From a virus, in the IMG/VR virus record IMGVR_UViG_3300037258_000252, positions 1-21,087 of that record: DNA of 21,087 nucleotides. One strand, written 5' to 3'. The position numbers were made by a program, and so were the translations under genes. This document shows, piece after piece, positions 2,185 to 18,864 of the stretch (position 1 is the stretch's first letter; the number at the start of each line of letters is the position of its first letter). The notes under the pieces were generated by a model that had not been told where the DNA came from, ran no database searches, and saw only the letters and a list, made by a program, of their open reading frames with translations.

Positions 2185-2441
2185 GCTACTTTGACGAAAC
2201 CGACATTCCCGTAGTCGCGCTGTGTGCGCTGACAGTAGCTTACATACGCGACCTGATGCGGCAACTGTACGAGGTTGGTCAGATGTCCCCGGAGGAGATC
2301 AAAAGGCGGTTAGTCGAAGGGTTCGCCAAGGCTACCGCGCAAGGCTCATCCGAAAAGCCTGAATCCGTTCCCGCATCTCCTGATTCTCCGCCCGAGTCCG
2401 ACCCGCAGACGACTCCTGAAACTTCTGAATTTTCCCGCTGA
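2181..2441 (+). CDS. Small protein with hydrophobic N-terminal segment (86 aa)
   Basis: The start at 2181 overlaps the previous stop by ATGA. Residues 9-22 (IPVVALCALTVAYI) form a short hydrophobic stretch that could be a membrane helix. A helical charged middle follows, then a Pro/Ser/Glu-rich tail (residues 55-86) that looks disordered. I do not recognise the family. The last 110 bases run antisense through the 3' end of the 1130-aa gene, so the low-complexity tail is constrained by the opposite coding strand. Confidence 0.6.
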   Translation: MSYFDETDIPVVALCALTVAYIRDLMRQLYEVGQMSPEEIKRRLVEGFAKATAQGSSEKPESVPASPDSPPESDPQTTPETSEFSR

Positions 2442-5400
2442 TGAGCGGGCGCAATGCCCGCTGTTCCGTCAATCCCGCCTCGCCCCACACTTGCAGCGCG
2501 TCCGCCAAGTCCAGACGGGCGACGGTCGCCATGATCGGCATGGGGTACTTGTTCGCCTTCTCGATGATGTCCGTCGCCTGCTTCTCGCTGATCTTTGCCT
2601 CGGCTCCGCTGGCTGCCTGATGGATGGCTTTCAGCGCATTCATGCGTCCTTGCTGGTCGCGTGAGTTGATGGCATCCCGCAGATCGTCCTCCAGCTTGTA
2701 GCGACGCTGCGCGGACGCCAACTCCTCGCCTTCGAGCGGAGCGCCTTGGCTCTTTTTGGAAGCAAGCTGCATCGCAAGCGTCTGCGCTGGCGTGAATATC
2801 TTGTGCGACCCGATGCCCACGCCTTGCAGCGTCTTGTCCAGCGCACCGGGCTGGCTCACCTGCTGGTTCGGGTACAGACCTTGCAGCGGGATGGGAGTGA
2901 CCTGCCGCAAGGTGTCGAAGACCTTCTGCGCGGATGAAATCTTGTGACCCTGCTGGTCAACGCCTTCGATCCATTCGCCGGGTGCCCGCACGAGCAGCGG
3001 GTTGACGCGGTTCATGGCGAAGTCCCTCGGCTTCTCGACGAAATGCAGGAAGTCGCCGAGCGTGGTACGCAAGGTGTACTCGCGCTTGCCGTCCTTGGAC
3101 TGCACGCCGAATCCCGCCTCGGGATGGGTGTCGCCGCTGGTGAGGTAGTTGATGCCGCGAGCCAACAGCCATTGCGAGGCGTTGAACGCGATGAGGCTCT
3201 TGACGAGAGTTCCGCCGTGTCCGCCCGCAACGTCCAGCACCGAGCGTCCGGTCGATTCCAAGAAGTCGGGGGCGAGCAAGAGCGCCCGCAAGGTGTTCTG
3301 CGTGGAAGCGGAGCGTCCCATGACGGTGTAGTTGAGTCCGCCGAATTTGTTGTTGACCTGAGACGCGGCGATGCGTCCTGCTTGGGTCTCGTCCAAGTCG
3401 GGCTTGGACTTCATAATCTGACCCTTCAGTTTGTCGTACAGGTCGAACTTCAGGCTGGTAATCCAGCCGGACGGACCGAACAGTCTCTCTTCTATCGCCC
3501 GGTTGAAATTCCCGATGAGCGGAATCTTGTTGATGAGCGAGTTCTTTTCGCCGACCAACCCTTCGCCCAAATATCCGCTGAATCCCGGTCTCGTGGACGA
3601 TGCCACGACCCCGTCGCGGATGGCGGACTTCTGCGCGTCGCTCAGGTTGAAATAGTCGATGTCCTTGGGGACGAAAAGCATCTTGCGGTTGGTTCCCCAT
3701 AGCGGGTTCATCCCGCTTTCGAGCGTGCGGTTCAAGATGGTCGCCCAGTGGAAAGGGCTGAGGGAAAGCAAATCGGATTTCGCTTCGCTGGATGCCTTGA
3801 GCGCGGCTCGCAGCAAGGCGTTCTTTGGCGCGGTCGATTCGAGCATGGCGTTCAAGTGCGGGGCGATGTCGGGATGCGCGTACACCGGCACCCTCGCGTT
3901 CGCAACCTTGGGAGCCTGCGCTGCGGCATCGGTGGGGATTCCCTGCATCCCTTTTTCCATGATGGCTTGCTCGGGGACGGGACCGCTTCCAAAAGGCACG
4001 ATGGCGGACTGCGGCAGTTGCGCCGCTTCCGCGGCCGTCACGGGACGCCACACGGACAGCCCGGTCGGAACGTAGTCCGACTGCTTCCACATATACGCTG
4101 GCTGCGCGGGTTTCTCCGCCTTGACGAACTGCGCCATCTGCGGAGCCTCGCCCATCAATTTGTTCGAGGGTTGCGACTTGACGATAGCCTGCGTCTGCGC
4201 GGGAGCGTTCAAGGTCTCCGCTGGTTCTCCGGGGACTTCGTAGATGCGACCCGACTTCAATAGCTCGTCGAACTTTCCCGCCGCTTTCAGTCTCGATATT
4301 TCTCCGGGGTCAACCGGCGCATCCATCGGGCGGGTGTATCCGGGCATGAGTTTGCCGGGAGCCGCCATCGGAGCGCCTTCGTTCGTGTAGGACGATGCCA
4401 GCTTTTCGCCAAGGTCGTTGCGACCGAGAAGATTGCTCACCTTCTCGTGGTAGTCGCTGATAAGGCGGACGGCGTCCTTGGTGGTCGGTGTCAGTCCGGC
4501 TTGCTGCGCGTCCGCATAGGAATCGAACTTGCGCTTCTTGAGGAAGTCGCGGTCGGAATCCATGAGCGTGCGCTCGACCGGCTTGCCCGTCGTGGGGTCA
4601 AGGTCTTCGACCGTGTGACGGTGAGGCAGGTAGTTCGCCTTGCCGCCGTCCTCGGGCAAGAGGTTCTTGAACTTCAGGTGCGCAAGGTCGGCGTTCAAAA
4701 TTTGCTTCAACTGGTCGCGGGCTTCGATTTCCTTGTCGGACAGTTGCTTGGCGGCGCGGTAGAGCGGCGCTTCGTCCTTGGTCGCCGGATTCGCTTCCGC
4801 CCGTTGCGCCCACTTCTCTAGCACATTGGGGTCGGCGTTCGCCTCGATGCTCATGCCGATGGCGATGCGGCGTTTCTCGTCGGGGATTTGCTTCGAGAAA
4901 TGCTTGAAAATGTCGTGCGCTTGCCCGACCCCCACTTGGTTCGATTCTTGGTAGCCGTACGTGCCATCGGCGTACTGCACCTGCATCATCGCCTTGCCCT
5001 TGGGGGACGTTGCACGCATCTCTTCCAAATCGTGGGCGACGCCTTTGGTCGCCATTCCCGTCGCCACCGCGTTCAAGAGGGATTCGGTTCCGAACTGTTC
5101 CAGCCGGGTGAGCGCCTTGGCTTTGTCGTTCTCGTTTTTCGCCGAGCGGTAGTCGCCCCACATGAGTTCCGCTTGGGGCAGGGTGTTGGTGCCGAGATCG
5201 TAGCCGTACTTCGCAAGGAATCCCACGTTGCCTGCGAGCTTCGCTTTCTGCACGATGCCAGCGGCTTCGGTGAGCGTCATCGCTCCCGCCTTGACCAGTC
5301 CTTGTTCGACCGCCGACTCCCCGAAGGAAGCTACGGCGAGACCCACGGAGAGCGGCGAGGTCATGCCGGAAAGGAAGTCCTCGGCTCCCGCCTCGAACCC

Positions 5401-5724
5401 GCCCGCGCCTTGGCGGTGGGAGGCGAGTCCGAACAGGGATGTGGTGAGCGGCTCGTTGAGCCACGACCATGCCTTGGATGCGAAGGAACCGTCGCCTTCC
5501 GGTTGCGATGTAGCGGCAGGAGCCGCCTCTGTGTGCGGCTGAGAAAAGAAATTGGCGGGTAGCGTGTCGGGAGCCGCGCTCGCGGACTGCGTCGTCGCGG
5601 ACTGCGGCGTAGCTCTGCTGAAAAAGTCGGCAGGGAGAGTATCGGGAGCCGCGCTAGGCGGCGGCGTATTCGATTGAGGCTGGTCGAAAAATCCAGCCGG
5701 AAGTGTGGCGGGTGAGTTCCCCAT
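2332..5724 (-). CDS. Giant virion protein, candidate internal/ejection protein (1130 aa)
   Basis: The N-terminus carries three LPAxFF motifs (residues 8-13, 30-35, 55-60) separated by Pro/Ala/Ser/Gln-rich linkers. Residues 85-340 are mainly helical. NYLPHRHT lies at 364-371. A block with NNKFGGLNYTVMGRS (791-805) and LLLAPDFLES (815-824) resembles modules in phage polyvalent and internal virion proteins. A hydrophobic stretch (843-863) could insert in a membrane. The C-terminal 150 residues are helical and charged. It is the last and largest of a 231-575-1130 aa series, like T7 gp14-gp15-gp16, which form the internal core and the ejection conduit. The start at 5724 has AAGAAGG 6 bases upstream. 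I see no clear catalytic lysozyme motif. The gene is certain; the ejection role is inferred from size, order and composition. Confidence 0.65.
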   Translation of the reverse strand: MGNSPATLPAGFFDQPQSNTPPPSAAPDTLPADFFSRATPQSATTQSASAAPDTLPANFFSQPHTEAAPAATSQPEGDGSFASKAWSWLNEPLTTSLFGLASHRQGAGGFEAGAEDFLSGMTSPLSVGLAVASFGESAVEQGLVKAGAMTLTEAAGIVQKAKLAGNVGFLAKYGYDLGTNTLPQAELMWGDYRSAKNENDKAKALTRLEQFGTESLLNAVATGMATKGVAHDLEEMRATSPKGKAMMQVQYADGTYGYQESNQVGVGQAHDIFKHFSKQIPDEKRRIAIGMSIEANADPNVLEKWAQRAEANPATKDEAPLYRAAKQLSDKEIEARDQLKQILNADLAHLKFKNLLPEDGGKANYLPHRHTVEDLDPTTGKPVERTLMDSDRDFLKKRKFDSYADAQQAGLTPTTKDAVRLISDYHEKVSNLLGRNDLGEKLASSYTNEGAPMAAPGKLMPGYTRPMDAPVDPGEISRLKAAGKFDELLKSGRIYEVPGEPAETLNAPAQTQAIVKSQPSNKLMGEAPQMAQFVKAEKPAQPAYMWKQSDYVPTGLSVWRPVTAAEAAQLPQSAIVPFGSGPVPEQAIMEKGMQGIPTDAAAQAPKVANARVPVYAHPDIAPHLNAMLESTAPKNALLRAALKASSEAKSDLLSLSPFHWATILNRTLESGMNPLWGTNRKMLFVPKDIDYFNLSDAQKSAIRDGVVASSTRPGFSGYLGEGLVGEKNSLINKIPLIGNFNRAIEERLFGPSGWITSLKFDLYDKLKGQIMKSKPDLDETQAGRIAASQVNNKFGGLNYTVMGRSASTQNTLRALLLAPDFLESTGRSVLDVAGGHGGTLVKSLIAFNASQWLLARGINYLTSGDTHPEAGFGVQSKDGKREYTLRTTLGDFLHFVEKPRDFAMNRVNPLLVRAPGEWIEGVDQQGHKISSAQKVFDTLRQVTPIPLQGLYPNQQVSQPGALDKTLQGVGIGSHKIFTPAQTLAMQLASKKSQGAPLEGEELASAQRRYKLEDDLRDAINSRDQQGRMNALKAIHQAASGAEAKISEKQATDIIEKANKYPMPIMATVARLDLADALQVWGEAGLTEQRALRPLISGKIQKFQESSAGRTRAENQEMRERIQAFRMSLAR
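2434..2462. promoter_or_regulatory. Two mutually exclusive hairpins at the convergent gene ends
   Basis: CCCGCT (2434-2439) can pair with AGCGGG (2444-2449) around a 4-base loop; alternatively AGCGGGC (2444-2450) can pair with GCCCGCT (2456-2462) around a 5-base loop. The first arm contains the first base of the plus-strand operon's last stop codon. No T-run follows on either strand, so this is not a classic intrinsic terminator. It may slow transcription or protect 3' ends. It also lies inside the coding sequence of the 1130-aa protein. Confidence 0.35.
5522..5715 (-). repeat. Three LPAxFF-coding repeats at the start of the giant protein
   Basis: The encoded motifs are LPAGFF, LPADFF and LPANFF, spaced 22 and 25 residues apart, the last two preceded by AAPDT. 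At DNA level, TCGGGAGCCGCGCT recurs at the end of the second and third units. The surrounding sequence is low-complexity, so the conserved hexamers stand out as short linear motifs. Confidence 0.75.
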
Positions 5725-5735
5725 TTAGACCTTCT

Positions 5736-7463
5736 TTACTGCTTGACCCACTGCTGACCGTCGAATGCGTAGTTGGCACCGTTGTACGAGCGCGTCGTGC
5801 CCTTCTGCGGAGCGCCCGCAGTTGCGGGAGCCTGAGTTCCGCCGTTCTTCTGCTTCTGGTACAGGTCGCGGACTTCGCCACGCGCCGCTGGCGAGAGTTC
5901 CGGGTGTTCGCCGAGATACTTTTCGGCGTCGTCGTAATTCGGATTCGGACCCATGCCGGGGATGGAGATCGGATCGGCTTCCCGCTCGTTGTACTTTTTC
6001 TGCTTGTCGGCTTCCGCCTTCTGCTTCGCGGCGACTTGGTCGCTCTGGTCTTTCTGGAAACCCTGCTGCGCGGGAGTCAGGTTGCTCGCCTGTTGCGTCG
6101 TCGCCGGTGGGGGAGTTCCGCCGTACTGCTTGTAGCCGATTCCCAACTGGCGTAGCTCTTGGTAGGAATCGCCCAGCGCGGCGTTCGCATCGGAGACGTG
6201 GTACTTGTTCGCGAGCGCCTGATACTCGGGCGAGTTGGTGTCCACGTTGCCCTTGGCGTCGGTCGGCAACATTCCGTAGTCAGTGTCCTTCTCCATGTCT
6301 TTCTCTGCGCTCTGGTAGGCGCTCATCGTCAGCGAGAATCTCCGCTCGGAATCGCCCAACAAAGCATCCTTCGCGCCGGGACTCAGCTTGCTGTAGTCGC
6401 CGCCGTTCTTGGTGAGTTCCGCACGGGCTTTCTTGGCGGTCTCGCCTTCCTTGAAATCGCTCAGGGCTTTCGACGCCTGCGCGTAGTCCAAGGTCGCCTT
6501 GGCGTTCGCGTCCTTGGTCTGCGCGATTTTTTCCTCTTGCGCCAAGATGTCCGTGCTCGTGCCGAACATGGTGCGCTCGGTTCCCGTGGCGTCCTTCAGT
6601 TTGTATTCCTTCACGCCGTCGTCGGGCACTTCCATCAAGTGGTACTTGCGGTCGGCTCCGTACACCGGACGGGTGCGGTAGCCGTTGAGATGCAAATCCT
6701 CAAGGTGGTTTTTGGTCGCGTAATTCTCTAGGTCTCCGAGATCGTTGAACGACGGGGTCTCCGCTCCGGCGATGGTGAGCGGCTTGGCTCCCAAACGCTT
6801 GAGGGTGTCCTCGCGCTCGACTTCCTCGTTCGCAAAGTCGATGTGCGCCTTCATCAACTCGAAATTTCTCAGGTTGTGTTCGTCGCCCATGTTGGCGAGG
6901 TTCGCGTCGTCAACCGCCATCCGCTTGATGGACTCCGCCTGCTGGCGGGCGTTCTCGGCGGTCTTGAGTTGAAAGTCCTTGTCGAAATTGGACTGCTCGT
7001 TCGTGACCTTCTGCTGTTCGAGTCCAAGCTGCTTGTTGCGGAAATCCTTTTCGTCCGCCAACTCCTGCTTCTTCTGGGAACTGGCTTCCATCTCGCGAGC
7101 CGCCGCGCCGATGCCGTAGGCTGCTCCGGCACCCTTGGGCACTTGACCCGCCGCGCCGAATCCCGACAACGCGGTCTGGATTCCGGCGAGCGTAGCCTTC
7201 GCCCAATCTCCGGGCTTTCCCTGCACCTTCGTCAAGGCATTCTGCGTCGATTGCGCAATCTGCGAGGTCAACGGCGGAACGGGGTTGGGGTTCGCCGCAG
7301 ACAGGTCGGCTCCCGATGCGCTCGGGTCGCTGATGTCGGGCGGTGCCGCGAGTGCTCCGATGTCGCCGCGAGTCGGCATGATGGGAACCGATGTGTTGCC
7401 GGTCGCCAATACCGGAACGGCGGGAGATGAATTGTCTGGTGCTGGTGTGATGATCGGTGCCAT
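5736..7463 (-). CDS. Coiled-coil-rich virion protein, candidate internal/ejection protein (575 aa)
   Basis: The N-terminal 70 residues are Pro/Ala/Ser-rich and look disordered. Residues 120-225 are strongly helical and rich in Gln, Glu and Lys, with coiled-coil character (KKQELADEKDFRNKQL and onward). A central mixed region (225-300) precedes a second helical segment (about 310-400). Residues 450-480 are Gln/Lys-rich. The protein ends with YNGANYAFDGQQWVKQ, a small beta-like tail. It lies between the 231-aa and 1130-aa genes, in the place and size class of T7 gp15. No enzymatic motif is visible. The start at 7463 is preceded by AGAGGA, and just upstream lies a perfect 11-base-pair hairpin. 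Confidence 0.6.
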   Translation of the reverse strand: MAPIITPAPDNSSPAVPVLATGNTSVPIMPTRGDIGALAAPPDISDPSASGADLSAANPNPVPPLTSQIAQSTQNALTKVQGKPGDWAKATLAGIQTALSGFGAAGQVPKGAGAAYGIGAAAREMEASSQKKQELADEKDFRNKQLGLEQQKVTNEQSNFDKDFQLKTAENARQQAESIKRMAVDDANLANMGDEHNLRNFELMKAHIDFANEEVEREDTLKRLGAKPLTIAGAETPSFNDLGDLENYATKNHLEDLHLNGYRTRPVYGADRKYHLMEVPDDGVKEYKLKDATGTERTMFGTSTDILAQEEKIAQTKDANAKATLDYAQASKALSDFKEGETAKKARAELTKNGGDYSKLSPGAKDALLGDSERRFSLTMSAYQSAEKDMEKDTDYGMLPTDAKGNVDTNSPEYQALANKYHVSDANAALGDSYQELRQLGIGYKQYGGTPPPATTQQASNLTPAQQGFQKDQSDQVAAKQKAEADKQKKYNEREADPISIPGMGPNPNYDDAEKYLGEHPELSPAARGEVRDLYQKQKNGGTQAPATAGAPQKGTTRSYNGANYAFDGQQWVKQ

Positions 7464-7503: not shown

Positions 7504-8199
7504 TTAGAACATCATGTCGCTGCCGGACAGGACGCCGTTCGTGTAGTTGCCCAGCGACGGATTGTTGTTGCCGCCTCCGCCCGGTTTCAAGAGCGACATT
7601 CCGCCCGACAACCCGGCGCTCGCAAGCGAAGTGATTCCGCCCGCGATGTCCGCCGTGGCTTGGTTCGATTCTTGGTTGATCGTGTCCGCTTCCTGAAAAG
7701 CGTTTTGACCGACTTCGTTCGCGAGCGAGCCGGTCGCATTCGGGTTGTACTGTCCCGATGCCGCCAACTCCGCGCTCTCCGCGTTCTGGAAGTTGCTGCG
7801 CCCCGTGGCGTAGTCGGACTCGGTGATTCCGAGTTCTTGGTTCGAGAGTTGACCCGCCGCGCTGGATGCCAATCCTTCTTTCAACTGCTGGTCTACGCCG
7901 GACTCGGGAAGACTTGACCCGCCGCCTCTGCCCGCAAGCTGCGAGTTCAATGCTACGGCTGCGTTCTTGTAGTTCGCACCCGTGGCGTTGACCGCTTGGG
8001 TGTTGAGCGCCGCCAGTTCCGAAGGGCTAAACCCCGTCTGCGACGGACCGGCTTCGAGCACCGGCGAAAGCACGGAATTGATGTGGCTCAGGATGTTCTG
8101 CTGGTCGGCGAAGTTGGTCGCGTAATTGTTCTGTACGCTCTGCATCAACTGCTGCTGCGACCCTTCGATGTTCTTTTCGGCTGCGCTAGGTCCGCAAAT
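7504..8199 (-). CDS. Small virion protein, candidate internal/ejection protein, with probable ATT start (231 aa)
   Basis: The frame has no ATG before 8145 but stays open to 8233. The upstream 17 codons read (I/M)CGPSAAEKNIEGSQQQ. From memory, related phage proteins begin MCGPS, then a helical stretch, then AGPxQxGFS-xx-E-xx-ALNT, as seen here (AGPSQTGFSPSELAALNT). The codon at that Met position is ATT (8199-8197), with AGGAG at 8211-8207, a 7-base spacer away. TTG 8148 and ATG 8145 lack a well-placed ribosome-binding site. The protein is Gln/Asn/Ala-rich and helical, with a glycine-rich hydrophobic C-terminal part (IAGGITSLASAGLSGGMSLL). It heads the 231-575-1130 aa series and may match T7 gp14 in role. 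A plus-strand HNH-like gene begins only 38 bases away. The gene is well supported; the start and role are inferred. Confidence 0.65.
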   Translation of the reverse strand: MCGPSAAEKNIEGSQQQLMQSVQNNYATNFADQQNILSHINSVLSPVLEAGPSQTGFSPSELAALNTQAVNATGANYKNAAVALNSQLAGRGGGSSLPESGVDQQLKEGLASSAAGQLSNQELGITESDYATGRSNFQNAESAELAASGQYNPNATGSLANEVGQNAFQEADTINQESNQATADIAGGITSLASAGLSGGMSLLKPGGGGNNNPSLGNYTNGVLSGSDMMF

Positions 8200-8217
8200 T
8201 TTCGTGCTCCTCTTGCC
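8200..8217 (-). promoter_or_regulatory. Ribosome-binding site that supports the ATT start
   Basis: On the minus strand AAGAGGAG (8214-8207) is followed by 7 bases and then ATT at 8199-8197. This is the best-placed ribosome-binding site for the 231-aa frame and is the main reason for preferring ATT over the downstream TTG/ATG codons. Confidence 0.6.
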
Positions 8218-8237
8218 TTGGTCAGTATTTACTCAAG

Positions 8238-8783
8238 ATGGGTAGACCAAGACTCGAACTCACTGGACAGCGTTTCAGCCGTCTTTTGGTGCTCGCCTTT
8301 GCCAACTATGACAAACGGCGTAATACCTTTTGGCTTTGCCTGTGTGACTGCGGCAAGCAAATAACTGTCCGTGGAACGGCTCTCAAGATCGGCAGAGTCG
8401 CAAGTTGCGGCTGCTATGCCCGAGAGGTTTCCTCAAAAATCCACTTCAAACACGGTCATCGTCGCAGACCCGATGGCAAACGGTCGCCAACCTACCGCTC
8501 GTATGGCGCTATGAAAAACCGCTGCTACGGTGAAACTCATCCTCGCTATGCCGATTACGGCGGACGCGGAATCCAAGTCTGCGAGCGATGGCTCGAATCC
8601 TTTGAAAACTTCCTCGCCGACATGGGCGAGCGTCCTACGGGCAAAACCCTCGACCGCTTCCCCAACAAAGATGGGAACTACGAACCGTCTAACTGCCGCT
8701 GGGCGACTCCAAAGGAACAGGCTGCGAACCGGCGACCCCGAAGTCGTGCCGGTACTCCTCTCGATACCCGAAACGCCGCATGA
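8238..8783 (+). CDS. HNH-like protein with N-terminal Cys-rich module, inserted in the late module (181 aa)
   Basis: The N-terminus reads LTGQRFSRLLVL, then a Cys cluster W-x-C-x-CDCGK (about residues 32-39) and SCGCY (55-59), probably a zinc-binding DNA-recognition module. FKHGH follows, then YGGRGIQVCERW and a C-terminal block LDRFPNKDGNYEPSNCRWAT with Q-xx-NRR. This block is shared with the protein at 1472-2014, but the N-terminal modules differ. As there, the first His of a normal HNH is replaced by the LDR context. The gene opposes all its neighbours and overlaps the GNAT gene tail-to-tail by 95 bases (8689-8783). No good ribosome-binding site precedes it. The position suggests a free-standing homing-type insertion. 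Confidence 0.75.
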   Translation: MGRPRLELTGQRFSRLLVLAFANYDKRRNTFWLCLCDCGKQITVRGTALKIGRVASCGCYAREVSSKIHFKHGHRRRPDGKRSPTYRSYGAMKNRCYGETHPRYADYGGRGIQVCERWLESFENFLADMGERPTGKTLDRFPNKDGNYEPSNCRWATPKEQAANRRPRSRAGTPLDTRNAA

Positions 8784-9126
8784 ATCGAATCAACGCCGGG
8801 GAAGTCGAGTCAAAAATGGCGTAGCGGAACCCCCGGCTCTTGGCTGCTTGGGCGACGAGCGGATACGCCTCTAACAAGGCAACGGCTATTCGCTTTCCCA
8901 CCCTCGGCGGGAACTGCACATGGAGCCGAATCCCCTGCCCCTCGGTCTCCTGCCGCACGTACATGCAGGCACCGTGGGCGTCCTCGATCACGAAGGAAGC
9001 CGCGTAGGAGGTCTCCCCCGGCATGAAAAAGCGCGGGACGATCTTGCCCTTGTGGTCGGAGTCCGCCTCGATCCACTCGCCGATTTGCTCCAAGTCGGCA
9101 TCTTCCACGCTGCGGAACGTGACCAT
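8689..9126 (-). CDS. GNAT-like N-acetyltransferase fold protein (145 aa)
   Basis: The N-terminus (TFRSVEDADLEQIGEWIEAD) and the C-terminal segment AAKSRGFRYAIFDSTSPALI with RFMRRFGYRE (ending about residue 122) follow the GNAT layout, in which the last strands carry a GF motif. The acetyl-CoA-binding Q/R-xx-G-x-G/A signature is weak here (PRVGKRIA, about residues 75-82), so activity is uncertain. Small GNAT-like proteins are common between tail genes in such phages, with unknown substrates. Its ATG directly follows the stop of the single-TM gene. The last 95 bases, coding about 31 residues, overlap the HNH-like gene; the last dozen residues (GSQPVPLESPSGS) look like readthrough into inserted DNA. 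Confidence 0.6.
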   Translation of the reverse strand: MVTFRSVEDADLEQIGEWIEADSDHKGKIVPRFFMPGETSYAASFVIEDAHGACMYVRQETEGQGIRLHVQFPPRVGKRIAVALLEAYPLVAQAAKSRGFRYAIFDSTSPALIRFMRRFGYREEYRHDFGVAGSQPVPLESPSGS

Positions 9127-15574: not shown

Positions 15575-16639
15575 TTAGAAGCCCACCAAGTACGGGTTGT
15601 AGGGACCGAGGTAGCCGCCCGCTCCCCCCCCGCCCGCCTGCAAAATCGTCCGCTCCACGATGAAGCGGTCTTCGTCGCGCTCGCGGTCGGATTCGCTGCG
15701 GGCTTCCACAAGCGATTCCTTCCAGAGCGCCCATTCCTGCGCGAACTTCGCCCGCACCTTGGCTTCGGGCGAGTAGCGGTATGCCTGCGCCACGCATCCT
15801 TGGCGGAAGTGCGACTCGTAGTCGTCGGTGAGCGGAAACAAGGTCTGCGCGAAAGAGGAAAAGCGGACAGGCTTCATCTGTCCCACGAGGTTGATCTGCC
15901 AAACGCATCCGCTCGCGGAGGGTACCGGCGTGAGGCGGATGCCCGACCCGTAGGGATCGACTACCGTCCATACGGTCGTGGCTCCCGTGCCGGGAGTCGC
16001 CACCGTGCCCGCTGCGGAGTTCGCCGGGGCGACCGGAGCGGTCGTGCCTTCGGTTCCGTAGCCGGTCAGGATGAGATAGTTGCCGTTCGCGTCCTGAATC
16101 TGCGTGATGGGATTCGAGGGCTGCGATTCGTTCGCCCCGAGAGGGTTGGCGTACACGGAACCGGAGACCGGGTTGTTTCCCCACGTCGCGTTGCCCGTCC
16201 CTGCGAGTCCCCACGTGCCGTAGTACATCTGGTTGTTCGGGATGGAGTTCGCGGTGAATACCGGCGAACGGAAAATGTTGTTGGCGATGAGCGCGGATGT
16301 GCGGCGGGACTGGCGGCGTCCGACTTCGATCCACGAGCACGGCTTCGGCACCGAGTCGTTGTTGATGTCGATGGCGGTTCCGTCCTCAAGCCACGCAAGG
16401 TTGGTGAGGCTGAGGGCGTAGTCCTGCTGGTAGCTGTTGGCGTAAAAAACGGGGAGGTTGAACGAGTTCCACTTCCACGGGAAGCTCACGTCGCAGAACG
16501 CCTGCATCACGTCGTCCGCGATGGTCAGCATCGGCTGCAAGCCGTAGCCGCCCTTGGTCAGTCCCGGTGCCAGTTCGCCGTAGGTCAGCAGGATGTCGTA
16601 GATATTCTGAAGCGTGACTGTCGATTGGGTGCTCGGCAT
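15575..16639 (-). CDS. Second adaptor-like head-tail protein with inserted repeat-like segment (354 aa)
   Basis: The N-terminal helical region contains LTIADDVMQAFCDVSFPWKWN (starting at 38), followed by QQDYALSL and a beta-rich middle. The C-terminal part has VWQINLVGQMKPVRFSSF (246-263), PLTDDYESHFRQG and a helical region with W-A-LWKESL, which together recall phage adaptor proteins. Residues 178-228 (QIQDANGNYLILTGYGTEG to ATTVWTVVDPYG) resemble one of the modules of the nozzle-like protein. A Gly-rich tail ends the protein. It probably joins portal and tail together with the 241-aa protein. Its ATG follows the zinc-knuckle-like gene by 21 bases. Confidence 0.55.
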   Translation of the reverse strand: MPSTQSTVTLQNIYDILLTYGELAPGLTKGGYGLQPMLTIADDVMQAFCDVSFPWKWNSFNLPVFYANSYQQDYALSLTNLAWLEDGTAIDINNDSVPKPCSWIEVGRRQSRRTSALIANNIFRSPVFTANSIPNNQMYYGTWGLAGTGNATWGNNPVSGSVYANPLGANESQPSNPITQIQDANGNYLILTGYGTEGTTAPVAPANSAAGTVATPGTGATTVWTVVDPYGSGIRLTPVPSASGCVWQINLVGQMKPVRFSSFAQTLFPLTDDYESHFRQGCVAQAYRYSPEAKVRAKFAQEWALWKESLVEARSESDRERDEDRFIVERTILQAGGGGAGGYLGPYNPYLVGF

Positions 16640-17820: not shown

Positions 17821-18864
17821 TTAGGTCGTGAGAGGGATTGCGTCGATGTAGCGGACACGCTGGCTGTTGACACCCGTACCCGGAGGGTTGGTGAAAACGT
17901 TGTGCCAGCGAACCGAAGTCCACGCGGGGATTTGACCGACCGGGTCCCAAGCCGAAGGAGCCGCGTTGGTCACGACGTTGCAGTCGATTGTCTTCCAATC
18001 CGCTTCGCCGATTTCCGTGTCGCCGGGGACGCCGAGCCAGATGCCGATCAAGCCGAATTGCGCTTCCATGTAGGAGCGGTATGCGGTCTTGCCGGATGAC
18101 TGGAAGTTCGCCGTCGAAGTCACGAACGGAGTGATGTGGAACTCCACGCCAAGACCCGGACCGATTTCAAGCGCCTGCCATTGGTTGGTGGTTCCCGCCA
18201 CTTCGTTGTACTTCTCCTGAGATTGAGCGGTGTACTTCCAAAAATCGGTGATCGAGTTGTTGACCGTCGTTTCGTTGGAAACGTCGTTCAGGATCATCGG
18301 GTGCATCTGACCCTTGTACAGACCGTTGCGGATCGGGAGAGCGCCCAGCGTGAACAACTGGTTCTTCATGGTGCGCAAGTCCGAAATCGCGAGCGATGTG
18401 GTCGAGGGGGACGAGATGAGCGACGACTGGTTGACGTTCGAGTCGATGTTGGAAAGGTCGTCGAGCGTGCTGGATGCCTGTTCCGACACCGTGATGCCGG
18501 TCTGGTACGACAACAGCTTCGCGGTTGACTCGACTTGGTCGGGGTCAATGCTGGAAGCCACGGAGAAAGCGGAGAAGTTCGCGAAAGCAGCGTTCTCGCC
18601 GATCTGCGCGGGCTGGACGATCTGAGCGAAAAACTCGGGCGACCCGATGACGCCGTCGCTGGTTGCCGCGATTGCATCAGTGAGTAGCTCGTAGGAAAAC
18701 AGAGTGCGGTTGATGCCCGAGTTGAGCGGCTGCATGCGGCGGTCTTGGGCGACCAAGAAAGCTGCCGTGTTGCTCATCATCGGGGGAACGAAAGAAGAAT
18801 CGAAAAGCACAGCCTGCGATGACAGGTTGTCTCCGACGTTTGTTGCTGATGGATTTGCGCCCAT
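17821..18864 (-). CDS. Major capsid protein, HK97-fold/N4-gp56-like candidate (347 aa)
   Basis: The length and style fit phage major capsid proteins. RTLFSYELL (53-61) and the stretch FAQIVQPAQIGENAAFANFS (79-98) with LLSYQTGITVSEQASSTLDD (117-136) resemble the pattern of N4-gp56-type capsid proteins (a substrate-arm region, then Q-Y-G-like and S-D-like segments). WKYTAQSQEKYNEVAGTTNQ (209-228) and a C-terminal beta-rich part (GVEFHITPFVTST) follow. It comes after the scaffold candidate and before a strong terminator, as expected for a highly expressed capsid gene. AGGAA lies 7 bases before the ATG. Confidence 0.75.
   Translation of the reverse strand: MGANPSATNVGDNLSSQAVLFDSSFVPPMMSNTAAFLVAQDRRMQPLNSGINRTLFSYELLTDAIAATSDGVIGSPEFFAQIVQPAQIGENAAFANFSAFSVASSIDPDQVESTAKLLSYQTGITVSEQASSTLDDLSNIDSNVNQSSLISSPSTTSLAISDLRTMKNQLFTLGALPIRNGLYKGQMHPMILNDVSNETTVNNSITDFWKYTAQSQEKYNEVAGTTNQWQALEIGPGLGVEFHITPFVTSTANFQSSGKTAYRSYMEAQFGLIGIWLGVPGDTEIGEADWKTIDCNVVTNAAPSAWDPVGQIPAWTSVRWHNVFTNPPGTGVNSQRVRYIDAIPLTT

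Follow-up and report, generated by a model that had tools for sequence, protein, structure and literature searches.

A probable ATT start codon in a putative phage virion gene and apparent near-cognate starts among its homologues

The DNA analysed here (hereafter the window) is a phage contig of 21,087 nucleotides (21 kb) with 60% GC, from a soil phage that is probably short-tailed. Its putative 231-aa virion gene very probably has a genuine start at an ATT codon (8199–8197), and comparison with the homologues indicated that a near-cognate start appears to be a recurring trait of this gene family rather than a sequencing slip. Near-cognate initiation as such is known; here it appears to recur within one phage virion gene family.

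The ATT codon and its gene

The minus-strand leader of the gene reads TGA GTA AAT ACT GAC CAA GGC AAG AGG AGC ACG AAA ATT TGC GGA CCT AGC, in which the ATT stands directly 5′ of the codons for CGPS and is separated from an AGGAG motif by the spacer CACGAAA. A sequence-only reading of the window had placed ATT at the Met position with AGGAG exactly 7 bases upstream, and this was accurate to the base. Counted from the Cys, the open reading frame encodes 230 residues up to the TAA, or 231 with the initiator. No ATG, GTG or TTG was found in frame in the window from the upstream TGA up to codon 16 past the Cys, and the first such codons are a TTG followed directly by an ATG. The 16 residues ahead of this TTG are conserved at the protein level, the differences between the window (TGC GGA CCT AGC ... 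GAA AAG AAC) and the homologous locus L006 (TGT GGT CCT AGC ... GAA AAG AAT) being synonymous. The window gene thus has no canonical start at its conserved N-terminus, homologues have one there, and a suitably spaced Shine-Dalgarno motif precedes the codon. Initiation most likely takes place at the ATT itself. The features of the region are collected in Table 1.

Table 1. Features in and around the 231-aa gene of the window
Feature	Coordinates	Strand	Basis or remark
Virion gene, 231 codons, probable ATT start (8199–8197) to TAA (7506–7504)	7504..8199	-	Homologous to Tunturi_3 gp23 and about 120 unique viral loci
Probable ATT near-cognate start codon	8197..8199	-	Aligned codon ATG/GTG in 77 homologues, ATT/ATC/ACG in 7 others
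AGGAG Shine-Dalgarno-like motif, 7 nt ahead of ATT	8207..8211	-	Strength not above that of ATG genes
In-frame TGA stop 5′ of ATT	8233..8235	-	Window sequence
First downstream in-frame TTG (8148–8146) and ATG (8145–8143), rejected as start	8143..8148	-	Preceding residues conserved in homologues
575-aa gene directly downstream, gp15-like ejection gene position	5736..7463	-	Gene order; no family match
1130-aa gene, gp16-like ejection gene position	2332..5724	-	Gene order; no family match
Predicted HNH endonuclease gene, antisense, between acetyltransferase-like and virion genes	8238..8783	+	PHROG 374, E 3.8e-66
Acetyltransferase-like gene, conserved upstream neighbour	8689..9126	-	Weak GNAT match, E 0.012

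Tunturiibacter phage Tunturi_3 (PP885686) was the sole annotated relative to be found; its gp23 shows 30% identity to the window gene, and its major head protein matches window positions 17821–18864. Tunturi_3 is a podovirus by electron microscopy (PMC11924767), and no virion mass spectrometry was found in that source. Its gene order acetyltransferase, gp23, gp24, gp25 corresponds to acetyltransferase-like gene, 231-aa gene, 575-aa gene and 1130-aa gene in the window. Although this order is shared, gp23, unlike the window gene, has an annotated ATG start and an N-terminal extension of 20-odd residues ahead of the CCGASS segment. The 231-aa protein had no match in PHROGs or Pfam, and a structure model of moderate quality (pLDDT 67.7) gave no PDB fold match at E ≤ 0.001. 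In phage T7, the small internal virion (ejection) protein gp14, whose second residue is Cys, is encoded ahead of two large proteins. The window gene likewise precedes two large genes, themselves without a family match, and also has Cys as residue 2, an analogy by position only, with no sequence-family or solved-structure match. A role as an ejection protein in a T7 gp14-like place may be proposed; because no family or fold search confirmed a likeness to gp14-gp15-gp16, the term ejection protein is drawn here from gene position.

Start codons of the homologues

A single-sequence scan of viral contigs gave no matches, and a two-sequence profile then opened the family. Once duplicates were removed, profile scans of viral contigs had yielded 121 unique loci (designated by L-numbers; metagenomic contigs underlie nearly all the alignments), and the conserved Cys could be located in 114 of them. 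A search of cellular genomes revealed no relatives. At the residue next to the start codon nearly all family members have Cys and a few have Ser, and the Cys is also retained in homologues whose N-terminal extension places it inside the protein.

Among the 85 genes without such an extension, the codon ahead of the conserved Cys was ATG in 71, GTG in six and near-cognate in eight, namely ATT in the window, L009, L034, L156 and L212, ATC in L051 and L108, and ACG in L006; TTG was not seen at this position. The remaining homologues have a variant N-terminus or an N-terminal extension with the start further upstream; the extension, present in about a quarter of the homologues, is often of the ...FEYxGxVEL-CG type. 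The MCGPS start that the sequence-only reading had named for the family is borne out in substance, most homologues reading MCG[PA][ST] here, and in homologues with a clear start ATG or GTG aligned precisely with the ATT. In the window, L006, L034, L156 and L212 (5/8), the open frame has no canonical start 5′ of the near-cognate codon. In L051 the nearest upstream canonical start is a GTG 60 codons away, and the upstream TTG codons of L009 and L108 are implausible, that of L108 lying inside the Shine-Dalgarno region. No downstream canonical start was present in the 133 codons of L108 that were examined.

A tree of 113 proteins indicated at least seven separate changes to a near-cognate start, and an earlier, smaller and careful tree indicated five changes for the five cases then known. 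Sister genes with a canonical start, each ATG or GTG, were identified in the pairs L034/L103 (ATG), L156/L155 (ATG), L108/L007 and L051/L050 (GTG). L004, among the nearest relatives of the window, has an ATG start where the window has ATT, and the tree is consistent with the proposal of the sequence-only reading that the ATT arose from ATG by a single change.

The near-cognate genes retain the conserved motifs of the homologues. The proteins of L155 (ATG) and L156 (ATT) are 95% identical, with dN 0.033, dS 0.255 and dN/dS of about 0.13; for L050 (GTG) and L051 (ATC), dN was 0.15, dS 1.5 and dN/dS about 0.10. The low dN/dS in both pairs shows that these genes are maintained, the near-identical ATG/ATT pair being under purifying selection. 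At positions 2980–3003 of L155/L156, where the two phages are about 90% identical, the leader bases differ sharply (AGGACATCAGC-ATG versus GAAGCAGGGTAGCTAT-ATT).

Two other genes served as controls. None of the 106 acetyltransferase-like genes in the same loci lacked ATG, GTG or TTG near the conserved N-terminus, and for relatives of a 354-aa gene (window 15575–16639) one of 55, L290, lacked a canonical start. The L290 sequence, TAG GGT ATT TAT ATC GGA CAG, probably represents another ATC start; at positions 580–620 (contig IMGVR_UViG_3300043654_000004) it reads TAGGGTATTTAT-ATC-GGACAGTC, with no upstream in-frame canonical start. Under the lenient rule, near-cognate starts were counted in 6/113 virion genes versus 1/161 for both controls (p=0.02); the strict rule gave 8/85 for the virion gene. 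Because the lenient excess is of this size, the specificity of near-cognate starts to the virion gene appears modest. The probability of seven further near-cognate cases among 84 genes ranges from 4e-12 to 2e-5 at a background of 0.1–1% per gene, a value assumed under the guidance of the three S. aureus non-canonical starts discussed in PMC13009471. A genome-wide scan for other startless open reading frames was rejected as too noisy in GC-rich contigs, the L009 candidate proving to be antisense low-complexity sequence.

The upstream junction and alternative explanations

In relatives, the acetyltransferase-like and virion genes are usually −41 to about 30 nt apart. In the window, L006 and L212 the distance is about 490–970 nt with an endonuclease gene inside, which is an antisense HNH gene in the window, AP2-HNH in L006 and HNH-AP2 in sense in L212. 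The result showed that an HNH-gene insert lies directly upstream of 3/8 near-cognate genes versus 0/77 ATG/GTG genes (p=0.0006). The site is occupied in the window, L005, L006 and L212, and empty in L004, L034 and others. L005, closely related to the window, also has an HNH gene at this junction, and its start is a new ATG upstream. Insertion accompanies loss of the ATG at the Cys position. In the window, the C-terminus of the acetyltransferase-like protein runs into the insert and its last residues look chimaeric. The family match together with the occupied and empty sites points to an HNH homing endonuclease as the product of 8238–8783, for which site-specific cleavage and homing are predicted.

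The start switch of the window is probably tied to this antisense HNH insertion. Insertion between the acetyltransferase-like and virion genes would have replaced the old leader and destroyed the original ATG, and we infer that the causal direction runs from insertion to start loss. The insertion explains the pattern only in part, because five of the eight near-cognate genes have no insert and another cause is needed for them. One tentative and rather unlikely extension is that the junction is a homing-endonuclease hot spot, at which arrival or departure repeatedly destroys the ATG; near-cognate starts, with AU directly ahead of them in 5/8 cases, would then be tolerated, or exploited as a fixed low-output throttle on a few-copy ejection protein, and the insert-free cases would be scars or endonuclease-resistant alleles.

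Other features resembling elements of this kind were observed. A further open reading frame inserted at this junction (L052:2184–2900) appeared GIY-YIG-like by eye, a likeness that neither Pfam nor PHROGs matches supported. On the plus strand of the window, an open reading frame (1472–2014) close to the opposite end of the virion block resembled regional HNH-type endonucleases by eye and gave a weak N-terminal helix-turn-helix match. In L015 (3001–4038), the virion protein has a Hint-like domain fused to its C-terminus (Pfam Hom_end_hint, with an E of 5e-6 that falls short of the curated cut-off).

Several alternatives to initiation at the ATT were considered. Translation of the window gene could begin downstream, at the TTG (8148) or ATG (8145) that are its first canonical in-frame codons, to give a 214-aa protein. 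This is very unlikely: the CGPS... segment that precedes them is conserved, its codon differences being synonymous, relatives have ATG or GTG at the ATT position, and the first downstream start of L009 is codon 97, on the far side of the conserved core. Homologues starting at 8145/8148, which the sequence-only reading had named as evidence against its proposal, were not found, the closest, L004, reading ...GSEQQFMNE there. It is even less probable that the true codon is ATG, hidden by an assembly or sequencing error. The base in the window comes from one assembly (an exact search of other viral contigs with its leader gave no match), ATT is one base from ATG and L004 has ATG; however, ATT, ATC or ACG occurs at the same position in seven other genes, and L108 and L109, from two metagenomes, both have ATC and agree across two assemblies with one mismatch in 6576 nt. 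In addition, L156 and L155 differ over the whole leader, not at one base. Gene decay classically begins with loss of the ATG, and the ATT might thus mark loss of function, but an intact, full-length frame, the conserved motifs kept in near-cognate genes and the low dN/dS in the two near-cognate/canonical pairs render decay highly improbable.

The two remaining alternatives concern the upstream region. The adjacency or overlap of the acetyltransferase-like and virion genes in most relatives would allow the frame to be entered by frameshifting or read-through, with no start codon needed, but in the window, L006 and L212 the two genes are held apart by the endonuclease gene, and an in-frame stop stands 12 codons ahead of the ATT of the window, which makes this route extremely improbable. 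Scarcely credible is a model in which the endonuclease lies within an intron and splicing restores an ATG. HNH endonucleases are frequently encoded in introns, and the upstream gene has an HNH match. Against the model, neither the window nor eight related loci had an Rfam intron match at the gathering threshold, a sensitive scan of 7900–9000 was also without an intron match, the endonuclease gene of the window is antisense, and five near-cognate genes have no insert.

Probable initiation at near-cognate codons and its significance

Initiation at the ATT would involve reading of this codon by the initiator tRNA (fMet) with reduced efficiency, guided by the AGGAG 7 nt upstream, and the initiator Met would probably be removed afterwards, residue 2 being Cys. 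The window would represent one of several independent switches in the gene family by which ATG or GTG at this position gave way to a near-cognate codon. Shine-Dalgarno strength in near-cognate genes did not exceed that in ATG genes (p=0.46), and compensation by a stronger motif or a uniform 7-nt spacing was rejected by the aligned calculation. In post-hoc comparisons, U at −1 was present in 6/8 near-cognate versus 18/71 genes (p=0.008), and AU at −2/−1 in 5/8 versus 1/71 (p=1.4e-5). A U at −1 could lengthen pairing with A37 of the initiator tRNA. No unusual hairpin at the start was detected in the leaders. A phage-encoded initiation apparatus was rejected as the cause, no IF3 homologue being found in 10 contigs.

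The L009 and L034 contigs (G002 and G003), from two near-cognate-start phages, carry nearly complete phage tRNA sets of 31 and 33 predicted tRNA genes, respectively, with one tRNA-Met(cat) each. L006 has one tRNA gene, and L051 and the window have none. Because tRNA gene number thus varies from 0 to 33 among the near-cognate phages checked, tRNA supply was rejected as an explanation of the pattern.

In E. coli, infC and pcnB start at AUU, and low, IF3-sensitive initiation has been documented for them (PMC5472188; Binns and Masters 2002 as cited in PMC13009471). The infC start is AUC in Streptomyces and AUA in S. aureus, and IF3 represses near-cognate initiation (PMC5472188). Streptomyces sigR starts at GTC, and S. 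aureus cvfC1 and ccpN start at AUU and AUA, the start limiting protein yield (PMC5472188, PMC13009471); in S. aureus reporters, non-canonical starts yield about 10% of AUG output (PMC13009471). From this literature it is reasonable to expect that the ATT start of the window would be of low efficiency and sensitive to IF3, as the sequence-only reading had suggested. The window gene resembles infC and pcnB in being a bacterial-type gene with an AUY/AUA start and a Shine-Dalgarno motif. However, infC and pcnB are regulatory genes of the host whose unusual starts are conserved, whereas the window gene belongs to a phage virion gene family in which most members have ATG and the switch has apparently occurred independently several times. 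Its ATT may limit protein yield as the starts of sigR, cvfC1 and ccpN do, although the gene is not known to be under partner-ratio or metabolic control. Free-standing endonucleases of phage T4 (mob/seg) occupy junctions of conserved genes and can interfere with the expression of their neighbours (PMC2988022). The window likewise has an HNH gene inserted between conserved genes, but here the insertion coincides with loss of the ATG of the next gene.

Only a handful of well-characterised bacterial genes have ATT, ATC or ACG starts. The ATG/ATT and GTG/ATC sister pairs described here are natural matched pairs for measuring the effect of a near-cognate start in a phage operon. The findings also carry a warning that gene callers limited to ATG, GTG and TTG will shorten or miss such genes. 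For the phages themselves, they suggest homing-endonuclease insertion at a gene junction as a route by which a start codon may be lost without loss of the gene.
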